Assembly: GCA_012840805.1 (NCBI GenBank)
Contig: DUVY01000082.1
Span: 1-41,244 of the forward strand
Reading direction: 5' to 3'
DNA length: 41,244 nucleotides
DNA from: Clostridiales bacterium
Lineage (GTDB): Bacteria > Bacillota > Clostridia > Christensenellales > DUVY01
Part shown: positions 14,278 to 39,031 of the stretch, in pieces
Layout of the letters: the number at the start of each line of letters is the position of its first letter
How positions within the stretch are numbered: the stretch's first letter is position 1
The notes under the pieces: generated by a model
The model's input: only the letters and a program-made list of their open reading frames with translations
Told to the model about the DNA's origin: nothing
The model's database searches: none
Position numbers and translations under genes: made by a program

Positions 14278-15006
14278 TTACAAAACATTATTCAATGATT
14301 TTAGCGAACACCCGACAAGCTCGCAAAACACATTCGCTATAAAACACAACAATTTTTTGGACGCTGTTGAGTCTATTTTTATGGTTGACAATCTTTCATA
14401 ATCCGAATTATCTATAAATTTTAGGTTATTGATTAAACTAAGCTGTATCGGTGAACCATCAATATCCTTACATAATGGGCACAGCAACCCCCCTCTTAAC
14501 GCTGAGAAATACGGTCTTGAAACGCTAGCGCGGCAAGACGAACACTTGGTAAAATTCATTTTATACCCTATTAACGCTAAAGTATCTATAATAAATTTGG
14601 CTGTAATCACATTTTCATTAGTCGTTTCGTAAGTAAGTTCTTTTAAAGCTTTAAGGCTTTGCAAAAACAGCTTTTCATTGGGTTGCCCTTCAATCGTGGC
14701 GTAATCAATAACCTCTAAAACGACACAACCTGCAAAAAATCTTTCTGTTTGATACGCCAAATCATAAAAAGATTCGGTCAGCGTGCAATTGGTTGTTATA
14801 TAATTATTTCCGCGTTCAGACAAAATAAACTCGCCAAAACAAAAAGGTTGCGCCGCCATTTTCATCTTTGCTTTGGGTTTTTTGACGCCTCTAAAGATAG
14901 CGCTTAATTTTCCTCTTTGCAAAGTAAAAAGGACGACAATTTTGTCGTTATCCTTATAATCTTTGGCGTTTAAAACCAAACCCGTTACTTTTATATTATC
15001 TTCCAT
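14278..15006 (-). CDS. recO: DNA repair protein RecO
   Basis: 242 residues. An N-terminal OB fold opens with VTGLVLNAKDYKDNDKIVVLFT. A helical domain follows, with a zinc site made by CSSC (about residues 158-161) and CPLC (about 176-179). RecO loads RecA with RecF/RecR on SSB-coated DNA. The start ATG has no Shine-Dalgarno sequence, and a TGATATAAT extended -10 lies so close that the predicted transcript begins at the ATG itself. It is head-to-head with the YqzL-family gene; in Bacillus yqzL is instead just upstream of recO in the same direction. Confidence 0.95.
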   Translation of the reverse strand: MEDNIKVTGLVLNAKDYKDNDKIVVLFTLQRGKLSAIFRGVKKPKAKMKMAAQPFCFGEFILSERGNNYITTNCTLTESFYDLAYQTERFFAGCVVLEVIDYATIEGQPNEKLFLQSLKALKELTYETTNENVITAKFIIDTLALIGYKMNFTKCSSCRASVSRPYFSALRGGLLCPLCKDIDGSPIQLSLINNLKFIDNSDYERLSTIKIDSTASKKLLCFIANVFCELVGCSLKSLNNVL

Positions 15007-15012
15007 AATTAA

Positions 15013-15041
15013 ATTATATCAAAAAAAATTTTTTGGGTCAT
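15013..15041 (-). promoter_or_regulatory. Promoter of recO, predicted to give a leaderless mRNA
   Basis: Minus-strand ATGACC (15041-15036), 17 bases, TATAAT (15018-15013), with a TG extended -10 element at 15021-15020. Counting the usual 6 bases after the hexamer puts +1 at 15006, the A of the recO ATG. Confidence 0.6.
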
Positions 15042-15122: not shown

Positions 15123-15266
15123 ATGTTTTTTGGAGACGATCTTTCAGGCTTGTCGTGGAAATTATTTTCCGCGACAGGAGAAATAGGATATTATATGTTA
15201 TATAAACGCCTAAATGAATTAGACGATGAAGTTAATCCTCCTGTTAATAGAGACAAGTTTGATTAG
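15123..15266 (+). CDS. yqzL: YqzL-family small protein
   Basis: This is a 47-codon gene. AGGAGG lies 7 bases before the ATG and a hairpin follows the TAG stop. The core LSWKLFSATGEIGYYMLYKR matches what I recall of the YqzL family (WK-F-x-x-TG followed by Y-x-L-[YF]-K), small Firmicutes proteins of unknown function. Location supports this: in Bacillus the order is era-yqzL-recO, and here it is directly divergent from recO. No membrane segment is present, and the C-terminal half is acidic. Function is unknown; the association with recO is synteny only. Confidence 0.8.
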   Translation: MFFGDDLSGLSWKLFSATGEIGYYMLYKRLNELDDEVNPPVNRDKFD

Positions 15267-37350: not shown

Positions 37351-37641
37351 TTATTTGCCTTTAAGTCGCTCTATTACTCTTTTGTAGCCATTTTCCCCAT
37401 AATTTAAACTTTTGTGCACGCGACTAATAGTGGCAGCGCTGGCGCCGGTTTTTTTTGTTATTTCGGTATAGATTTTACCTTTGTCTAACATAAGCGCGAT
37501 CTCAAACCTTTGAATCATAGCTCGTAATTCAGCCACGGTGCATAAATCTTCAAAAAAATCATAGCATTCGTCAATAGATTGCAACGACAAAATCGCATCA
37601 AATAATTGATCGGCTTGAGGAGATTTAAATTTTGATGACAT
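37351..37641 (-). CDS. yerC: YerC/YecD family TrpR-related protein
   Basis: 96 residues, a helical TrpR-like DNA-binding fold. AELRAMIQRFEIALMLDKGKIYTEITKKTGASAATISRVHKSLNYG contains the helix-turn-helix, split here as AELRAMIQRFEIALMLDKGK and TGASAATISRVHKSLNYG. No tryptophan-operon link is seen; regulons of YerC proteins are poorly known. It leads the yerC-pcrA-ligA operon, 5 bases ahead of pcrA. Confidence 0.92.
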   Translation of the reverse strand: MSSKFKSPQADQLFDAILSLQSIDECYDFFEDLCTVAELRAMIQRFEIALMLDKGKIYTEITKKTGASAATISRVHKSLNYGENGYKRVIERLKGK

Positions 37642-37798: not shown

Positions 37799-38191
37799 TT
37801 ATCTTTCTTCAAGCTTATTTATTAACAATTTCATCTTAAAGACTGTATCGTCGCTGATTATATGTTCTATCTTACAAGCCTCGACTTCGGCGGTCACTTC
37901 ATCCACGCCCAAAACCTTTATCAAAAACGATTTTATGTTAGTATGCTTAGTTAAAATATATTCTGCGCGCCTTTCTCCCGCTTGAGTCAATTCAACAAGC
38001 CCGTATCTTTCTTGATTGACAAACCCTTTATCCTTTAATAAGCTAATAGCGTTATTGACGCTTGGCTTGGCTATGCCTAATTCAATAGCTATATCTGTAA
38101 CTCTAACGCTTGAATTAAGTCTCCTAAGGTTATAAATCGCTTCCAAATAATCTTCTAAAGAAGGTGAAATTTTTTTACCCGAATTACTCAT
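37799..38191 (-). CDS. DtxR/MntR-family metal-dependent repressor
   Basis: 130 residues. The N-terminal winged helix opens with ISPSLEDYLEAIYNLRRL, continues with VRVTDIAIELGIAKPSVNNAISLLKDKGFV, and has GLVELTQAGERRA. The dimerisation/metal domain has a His in TKHTNIKSFL and CKIEHIIS with Cys, Glu and His ligands, as in MntR and IdeR. There is no C-terminal SH3-like domain, so it is the short MntR-like form. Whether it senses Mn2+ or Fe2+ cannot be told, and no metal transporter is nearby. It has no Shine-Dalgarno, and its promoter and palindrome run into the start codon. Confidence 0.9.
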   Translation of the reverse strand: MSNSGKKISPSLEDYLEAIYNLRRLNSSVRVTDIAIELGIAKPSVNNAISLLKDKGFVNQERYGLVELTQAGERRAEYILTKHTNIKSFLIKVLGVDEVTAEVEACKIEHIISDDTVFKMKLLINKLEER

Positions 38192-38227
38192 AATATTATA
38201 ATATTACAAAAAGCTATCCAAAGTCAA
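38191..38227 (-). promoter_or_regulatory. Promoter plus 16-bp palindrome at the start codon of the DtxR-type gene
   Basis: Minus-strand TTGACT (38227-38222), 18 bases, TATTAT (38203-38198). The predicted +1 is at 38191, the A of the ATG. The -10 box lies within the perfect palindrome TAATATTATAATATTA (38191-38206), a candidate operator for autoregulation. Confidence 0.55.
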
Positions 38228-38245: not shown

Positions 38246-39031
38246 CTATTTGTCTCTTTCTTTTTGAATTCTATATACCATATTTCTAATAAATTTTCTA
38301 GGAAGTAATTTAACGCCTATTGTCGCGATCTTATTATAGAAACCAGGCACGGCTATTACCTTGCCTTTTTCCATTTTCTTGTAACCAAATTCCGCTACCT
38401 TTTTAGCATCGGCAATTTGCAAATTTACAAATAAGCCTGACATTCCCAAATTAGCGGATTGGGCAAAATTTGTTTTTGTAGGCCCGGGGCACAAAGCTGT
38501 AACGCTAACGCCTGTTCCTTTTAGTTCTCTTGATATTGCTTCAGAAAACGACAAAACATAAGCTTTTGAAGCGTAATAAACCGCCATTAATGGACCGGGC
38601 TGAAAGCCGCCAAGCGAGCTTACATTTAAGATTTTGCCGCTTTTTTGTAGGAGCATTTTGGGCAAAAATAAGCGAGTTAATTTGGTTAAGGTATTGATAT
38701 TGAGTTCTATCATAGCGTCAATCTTGAAAATGTCAGATTTCTCAAACTCGCCAAAATCCCCTAAGCCCGCGTTATTTACCAACACATCTATATTTATATT
38801 GGCTCTTTGGATCTCATCAAAAACCTCTTGCGCCGAATTCGGCAATGACAAATCCTTTGTAATATTTATTATTTCTATGTCAAATTGATTTTGCAAATCC
38901 TGTTTTAATTTGTTTAATTTGTCTTGACTTCTGGCGATTAAAACCAAATTATATCCATCTCGCGCAAATAAATACGCGAACTCATACCCTATTCCGCCGC
39001 TAGCGCCTGTAATTAAAGCAGTTTTTCTCAT
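38246..39031 (-). CDS. Short-chain dehydrogenase/reductase (DltE-type SDR)
   Basis: 261 residues, classical SDR. TGASGGIGYEFA is the nucleotide-binding motif, NNAGLGDFGEF stabilises the core, and the catalytic tetrad includes Ser in NVSSLGG and YYASK (Tyr-x3-Lys). RSQDKL after strand 2 suggests NADP(H). A positively charged C-terminal tail is present. It lies 18 bases downstream of plsY, the position where gpsA is often found, so a role in lipid metabolism is possible but unproven. Substrate unknown. Confidence 0.88.
   Translation of the reverse strand: MRKTALITGASGGIGYEFAYLFARDGYNLVLIARSQDKLNKLKQDLQNQFDIEIINITKDLSLPNSAQEVFDEIQRANINIDVLVNNAGLGDFGEFEKSDIFKIDAMIELNINTLTKLTRLFLPKMLLQKSGKILNVSSLGGFQPGPLMAVYYASKAYVLSFSEAISRELKGTGVSVTALCPGPTKTNFAQSANLGMSGLFVNLQIADAKKVAEFGYKKMEKGKVIAVPGFYNKIATIGVKLLPRKFIRNMVYRIQKERDK

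Follow-up and report, generated by a model that had tools for sequence, protein, structure and literature searches.

Leaderless genes with a TA-like signal some 12 bp ahead of the start codon have been surveyed across bacteria, and they occur in 56 of 209 Firmicutes genomes, at a mean of 4.2%, with a concentration within this phylum in the Lactobacillales and Mycoplasma (Zheng, 2011; PMC3160421). Many leaderless transcripts have also been described in clostridia (PMC4533764), and two further reports place them at about 2–4% of transcripts or start sites (PMC9045289, PMC5171806). For the metal-dependent repressors IdeR and DtxR, a 14-bp spacing of TTAGGNNNNCCTAA half-sites has been proposed (PMC8464063), and a review states that the SH3-less members of the family reported to date show no response to Fe2+ in vivo (PMC7762939). 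Among the titles and abstract openings returned when an open-access library was searched for leaderless autoregulated repressors, none describes a DtxR gene of this kind.

The window considered here is a stretch of 41,244 nucleotides that forms one whole contig of a Clostridiales bacterium assembly (G000; 1.71 Mb in 231 contigs), and it carries on its minus strand a dtxR-type repressor gene encoding a protein of 130 aa (37799–38191). The gene lies downstream of a short-chain dehydrogenase (SDR) gene on the same strand (38246–39031; Pfam adh_short) and upstream of yerC, a TrpR-related gene also on the minus strand (37351–37641; NCBIfam TIGR02531). The order SDR-dtxR-yerC-pcrA is kept in both other members of the genus (G001 and G002), whose orthologous proteins are 88% and 87% identical to that of the window. 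No linkage of yerC to dtxR was seen outside the genus, as among 113 dtxR loci only L068, which is the contig of G001, had yerC.

The protein contains the N-terminal helix-turn-helix domain (PF01325, Fe_dep_repress; 45 bits, cut-off 26) and the metal-binding and dimerisation domain (PF02742, Fe_dep_repr_C; 55.4 bits, cut-off 27) that characterize the DtxR/MntR family, and Pfam gives neither an SH3 domain nor any further domain. It belongs to neither of the two named types proper, scoring 37 bits against a cut-off of 290 for the NCBIfam DtxR equivalog, and 88.2 against 153 and 74.3 against 138 bits for the MntR equivalogs. Alignment to MntR gives D14, E17, H83, C106, E109 and H110 as the residues that we take, from the MntR ligands, to be the metal ligands; D14, E17, H83 and H110 are present in all 80 relatives examined, and E109 and C106 in 79 each, so that the conserved ligand set of the family is retained. 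Like the MntR proteins of Bacillus and E. coli, the protein is small and lacks an SH3 domain, and its D14, E17, H83, E109 and H110 match D8, E11, H77, E102 and H103 of MntR; unlike MntR, it has C106 in place of E99. This cysteine, kept in 79 of 80 relatives, is of the DtxR type, and Fe2+ would therefore be the likelier signal, although the SH3-less members covered by the review cited above do not follow this pattern in vivo (PMC7762939). The protein differs from IdeR/DtxR, apart from the missing SH3 domain and the low equivalog score, in the MntR-like aspartate and glutamate of the first metal-site helix. No Nramp-type manganese transporter gene was found in any of the three genus genomes, which also sets the genus apart from MntR systems and led us to reject a manganese transporter as target; the ZnuA locus of G000, likewise considered, lies near a gene that by eye looks Fur-like.

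The start region of this gene is compact. On the minus strand, a -35 element TTGACT (38227–38222) is followed by an 18-base spacer, a -10 element TATTAT (38203–38198) that begins 12 nt before the ATG, six further bases, and the start codon itself (38191–38189), so that transcription is predicted to begin at the A of the ATG or at a base beside it. The 20 bases before the ATG contain a single G and no AGG, GGA or GAG, meaning that no Shine-Dalgarno (SD) sequence was found there. The choice of start codon is forced, because the open frame extends just four codons upstream of the ATG and holds no other ATG, GTG or TTG. A consensus TATAAT that lies 3 bases further downstream is a poorer candidate for the -10 element than TATTAT, because it would need a spacer of 21 from TTGACT and would put the transcription start inside the gene. 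The promoter thus described fits within the 54-bp gap between the SDR and dtxR-type genes. Both same-genus orthologs have TTGACT, a spacer of 17 and TATTAT 15 nt before the ATG, again with no SD; TTGACT and TATTAT at a spacer of 17–18 are therefore kept in all three genus members while the gap sequence otherwise diverges. As the -10 element sits at -12 in the window and at -15 in both orthologs, 3 nt further up, the leaders of the latter are expected to be about 3 nt rather than 0, that is, near-leaderless. Most of 27 order-level and family-level loci viewed, with starts picked by rule rather than curated, have an SD-like word, L014 being an exception. Overall, with a -10 element some 12 nt ahead of its first codon and no SD, the gene has the architecture of a leaderless gene, and its start is most likely leaderless, as judged from sequence. 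The arrangement TTGACT-N18-TATTAT-N6-ATG reported in the preliminary description, together with the missing SD and a perfect 16-bp palindrome at 38191–38206, is exact to the base.

This architecture recurs elsewhere in the genome. Open reading frames were called by a simple codon-usage script with first-ATG starts, strict -10 hexamers were located in genes without SD-like words, and the counts expected at -12 were derived from offsets -60 to -18; these leader statistics draw on 532 kb out of the 1.71 Mb of G000 and on smaller samples from the other genomes. An initial count with TANNNT at -12 was set aside in favour of strict hexamers without in-frame stops, because in-frame TAA and TAG stops inflate the in-frame offsets. 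Among no-SD genes of G000, 8 of 129 have a -10 hexamer at exactly -12, against 1.07 expected, an expectation that is somewhat low because the no-SD filter favours A/T-rich starts. The corresponding figures in the same genus are 7 of 69 against 0.60 (G002) and 2 of 54 against 0.67 (G001, not significant alone, p 0.15), and in another genus of 54% GC (G004) they are 3 of 51 against 0.09. The remaining family genomes gave 1 of 11 against 0 (G005) and 0 of 7 against 0.05 (G003), and three order-level genomes gave 1 of 41 (0.28 expected; G006), 0 of 15 (0.09; G008) and 1 of 27 (0.23; G058). Offsets -11 and -10 are low, at 0 to 2, for no-SD genes in every sampled genome. When all genes of G000 are taken together in a smaller sample of 310, 8 lie at -12, where the mean is 3.5, and the nearby offsets hold 0 (-14), 3 (-13), 2 (-11) and 0 (-10).

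Comparison of orthologs leads to a similar picture. With a range of -15 to -12 that was set after the -15 of the dtxR orthologs had been seen, the leaderless architecture is present in both members of 3 of 68 ortholog pairs (0.26 expected), 5 of 88 (0.41) and 4 of 37 (0.43), the dtxR-type gene being one member of each of these three sets. Another case lies in the window itself, as had been proposed earlier: recO (14278–15006, minus strand; Pfam RecO_N and RecO_C) has a TATAAT that begins 12 nt before its ATG (15013–15018, minus strand), and this element is at -12 in all three genus species. The divergent yqzL (15123–15266, plus strand), for which a 12-base leader had been suggested, does not belong with the SD-less genes, since AGGAGG is kept before its start in all three species.

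DtxR-type genes elsewhere in the family show the architecture to a varying extent. Those of G004 and G005, both of the other genus, have TATACT or TATAAT at exactly -12; since the encoded proteins share just 38% and 36% identity with that of the window and the preceding neighbour is different, clear orthology cannot be claimed. G003 has two DtxR-type genes, both with SD-like leaders, and G001 has a second one, at whose start a clear -10 box is lacking. In total, five of eight DtxR-type genes in the six genomes of the family have a -10 box 12–15 nt before the ATG and no SD, and these five span two genera (about 34–39% and 54–56% GC in the sampled stretches) and two divergent DtxR branches. Leaderless starts would most likely be a modest, conserved habit of this uncultured Clostridia family, and the earlier proposal that very short leaders may be a trait of the organism agrees with the -12 peak in no-SD genes and with the excess of ortholog pairs. 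The genes resemble those of the bacterial survey in having the -10 element at -12 without an SD and in being a minority of genes; they differ in coming from an uncultured Clostridia family and in an architecture common to orthologs (PMC3160421). The leaderless genes of C. phytofermentans generally keep a ribosome-binding site and another upstream start (PMC5171806), whereas the candidates here have no SD.

The close spacing of genes might suggest that the main source of dtxR message is instead a longer transcript through the SDR gene, giving an SD-less but leadered start, with the promoter at the start weak or unused. The shared strand, the 54-bp gap and the conserved gene order are consistent with such read-through, and SD-less genes that do not depend on leaderless mRNA have been discussed for many bacteria (PMC5397173). 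However, one would not then expect TTGACT and TATTAT to be held at their 17–18 spacing in three species across an otherwise diverging gap, nor the peak in -10 box position over the sampled genome, and we regard read-through as the main source as unlikely.

From the palindrome at the start, the preliminary description had suggested that the repressor may bind its own start site. Its sequence, TAATATTATAATATTA (38191–38206), consists of two tandem copies of TAATATTA, itself an 8-bp palindrome, and spans from the start codon through the -10 element. As a perfect palindrome of at least 16 bp it is the only one in the window, against a mean of 1.45 in first-order shuffles (n = 40, maximum 3), which does not exceed chance for the window. 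Simulated TATTAT-N6-ATG in sequence of 90–96% AT yields such a palindrome in 1.3–2.6% of cases, and at a start codon it is rare, as the region -30 to +3 of 359 sampled G000 genes holds no other of this length. At the corresponding position, a perfect 16-bp palindrome of other sequence, ATTATATCGATATAAT, is present in G002, the only one among its 178 sampled start regions. In G001 the palindrome is imperfect, with 6 of 8 positions paired, and none of the 140 start regions sampled there holds one of 16 bp. This recurrence in G002, with a chance of about 1–3%, is a mild hint of constraint.

A perfect palindrome placed exactly on promoter and start, with a second one in G002, would lead one to think of an operator through which the repressor, bound over its own -10 element and start codon, represses its own gene, and DtxR-family repressors often bind over a -10. 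Nevertheless, the palindrome is unlikely to be an operator of this protein, because the letters of the arms differ between species and the register is shifted by one base, with only 6 of 8 positions pairing in G001, yet the recognition helix AKPSVNNAI is identical in the window protein and both orthologs. Furthermore, the palindrome is not repeated at other promoters: a scan of the 1.71-Mb assembly for similar sites, as had been recommended, returned the exact sequence once and one other place at 1 mismatch (C53), which precedes a small ORF with its own GGAGG and was taken as chance. The earlier account had named absence from relatives and from the rest of the genome as evidence against binding, and this absence largely holds, the qualification being the unlike palindrome of G002 and the imperfect one of G001. 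Centred on the palindrome, the candidate operator GTTAG-N6-CTAAC described below shares 0 of its 10 fixed bases with it, and in relatives whose dtxR is in one operon with feoAB, sites of the GTTAG-N6-CTAAC type are what lie before dtxR. Autorepression through the palindrome is accordingly a doubtful proposition that we think improbable. That the palindrome serves another regulator or an A/T-binding protein is very unlikely, since palindromes at the same place in two of three species are all that would favour it, against the lack of recurring genome copies and of any sequence common to the species. We consider the palindrome most likely to have arisen incidentally where an A/T-rich promoter runs into the start codon.

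A more plausible operator emerges from 80 loci around relatives from many phyla. In these, 54 sites were counted for TTAG-N6-CTAA where 7.2 would be expected, none of the other spacers from 2 to 11 is in excess, and the longer GTTAG-N6-CTAAC, of the IdeR/DtxR half-site type, occurs at 30 sites against 0 expected. The spacing equals the 14-bp spacing of TTAGGNNNNCCTAA half-sites proposed for IdeR/DtxR, which the window's protein further resembles in its helix-turn-helix and metal domains and in iron-uptake targets that are here predicted (PMC8464063). A TTAG-N6-CTAA site is present in 40 of the 80 loci, a feoB-like gene in 43 and both in 29, and most sites lie 20–140 bp before dtxR where dtxR heads the feo operon, or before feoA. 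The nearest clostridial relatives are mostly without boxes and without feo genes in flanks of up to 4 kb, and a G003 homolog beside feoB has, by eye, just one site, at 1 mismatch.

In G000, the exact GTTAG-N6-CTAAC 16-mer occurs once, in the feoAB leader, and a second 20-mer with 1 mismatch lies directly after the -10 element of the same promoter. Both sites are kept in G001; since the feoAB leader of G002 falls off its contig, they were seen in these two genomes. One further GTTAG-N6-CTAAC site each is found in G001 and G002 before a DUF3793-flavodoxin pair, a gene pair whose DUF3793 member is cut at a contig end in G000. Because the 16-mer count in the whole of G000 (1 place) is not above that of a reversed-pattern control (2), the assignment of targets rests on position and conservation. 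A 1-mismatch site at G000 C87:32117, which overlaps the start of an ORF resembling, by eye, an ABC permease, was taken as chance. At the start of the dtxR-type gene itself no such site was found with up to 2 mismatches, the nearest, at 38732 and 37474, lying inside the neighbouring genes; a cognate operator kept in orthologs at its own promoter, as autorepression would entail, is therefore lacking, and the model of a self-binding repressor put forward earlier gives way to sites at feoAB and DUF3793-flavodoxin. With predicted TTAG-N6-CTAA operators near feoAB, the gene is an SH3-less, Feo-type member of the DtxR family, an ordinary regulator with a modestly interesting start.

Taken together, the reading that we hold to be probable is that of a leaderless gene started from its own promoter, encoding an Fe2+-type repressor that acts at the feoAB and DUF3793-flavodoxin sites, with an incidental start palindrome. 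Transcription of the dtxR-type gene would be driven by a promoter of its own, whose position in the 54-bp gap behind the SDR gene is shown by sequence and comparison, and RNA polymerase would start at the ATG or a few bases from it, to judge from the position of the -10 element, so that the mRNA would have no leader and ribosomes would begin on a 5'-terminal AUG. The Fe2+-loaded SH3-less protein would most likely bind GTTAG-N6-CTAAC before feoAB and the DUF3793-flavodoxin operon, and the bound repressor would turn off genes for iron uptake and iron sparing; when iron is limiting, flavodoxin takes the place of iron-sulphur proteins. Since the likely sites lie before iron-uptake genes, the start palindrome is probably not a binding site. 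A further, speculative and rather unlikely possibility is that leaderless starts are a selected property of the metal-repressor genes of the family, with start palindromes adding control of RNA polymerase. If so, synthesis of the repressor would rely on leaderless initiation and not depend on SD-led translation, and the palindromes, unlike in sequence but present in two of three species, could control RNA polymerase at that place.

The comparison points to an uncultured Clostridia family in which a few conserved genes, recO and the iron repressor among them, have leaderless starts. For a widespread branch of Feo-linked DtxR proteins that lack the SH3 domain, it also yields an operator that can be tested and a small predicted iron regulon consisting of feoAB and DUF3793-flavodoxin, and it corrects an attractive model of autoregulation that is probably wrong. 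In G004 (L285), ATTAGCGTACGCTAAC is located just upstream of the -35 element, about 60 bp before the leaderless DtxR-type gene, so that autoregulation may exist there.

Some minor features of the predicted regulon may be added. The DUF3793-flavodoxin pairs that follow GTTAG-N6-CTAAC in the two species are at L272:487-1117 and L273:521-1150, and the palindrome in L272 extends to ATAATGTTAG-N6-CTAACATTAT; the identity of DUF3793 comes from the full frame, a 49-aa peptide alone giving no Pfam match. In the feoAB leader (L157, G000:C205:6953-7019, minus strand, and L168:3265-3331), a short hairpin, ACATCC..GGATGT, followed by a T run, lies between two DtxR-type sites and looks like a terminator between promoter and feoA. 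Searches of this leader in four sources gave no Rfam riboswitch match at the gathering threshold, and because the leaders of the two species fold differently, no attenuator is claimed. Finally, feoAB and dtxR are on one contig in G001 (L168:3438-10804; G001:C207), about 5 kb apart, and in that genome a -10 box likewise lies 14 nt ahead of the ATG of the helix-turn-helix regulator gene beside feoB.
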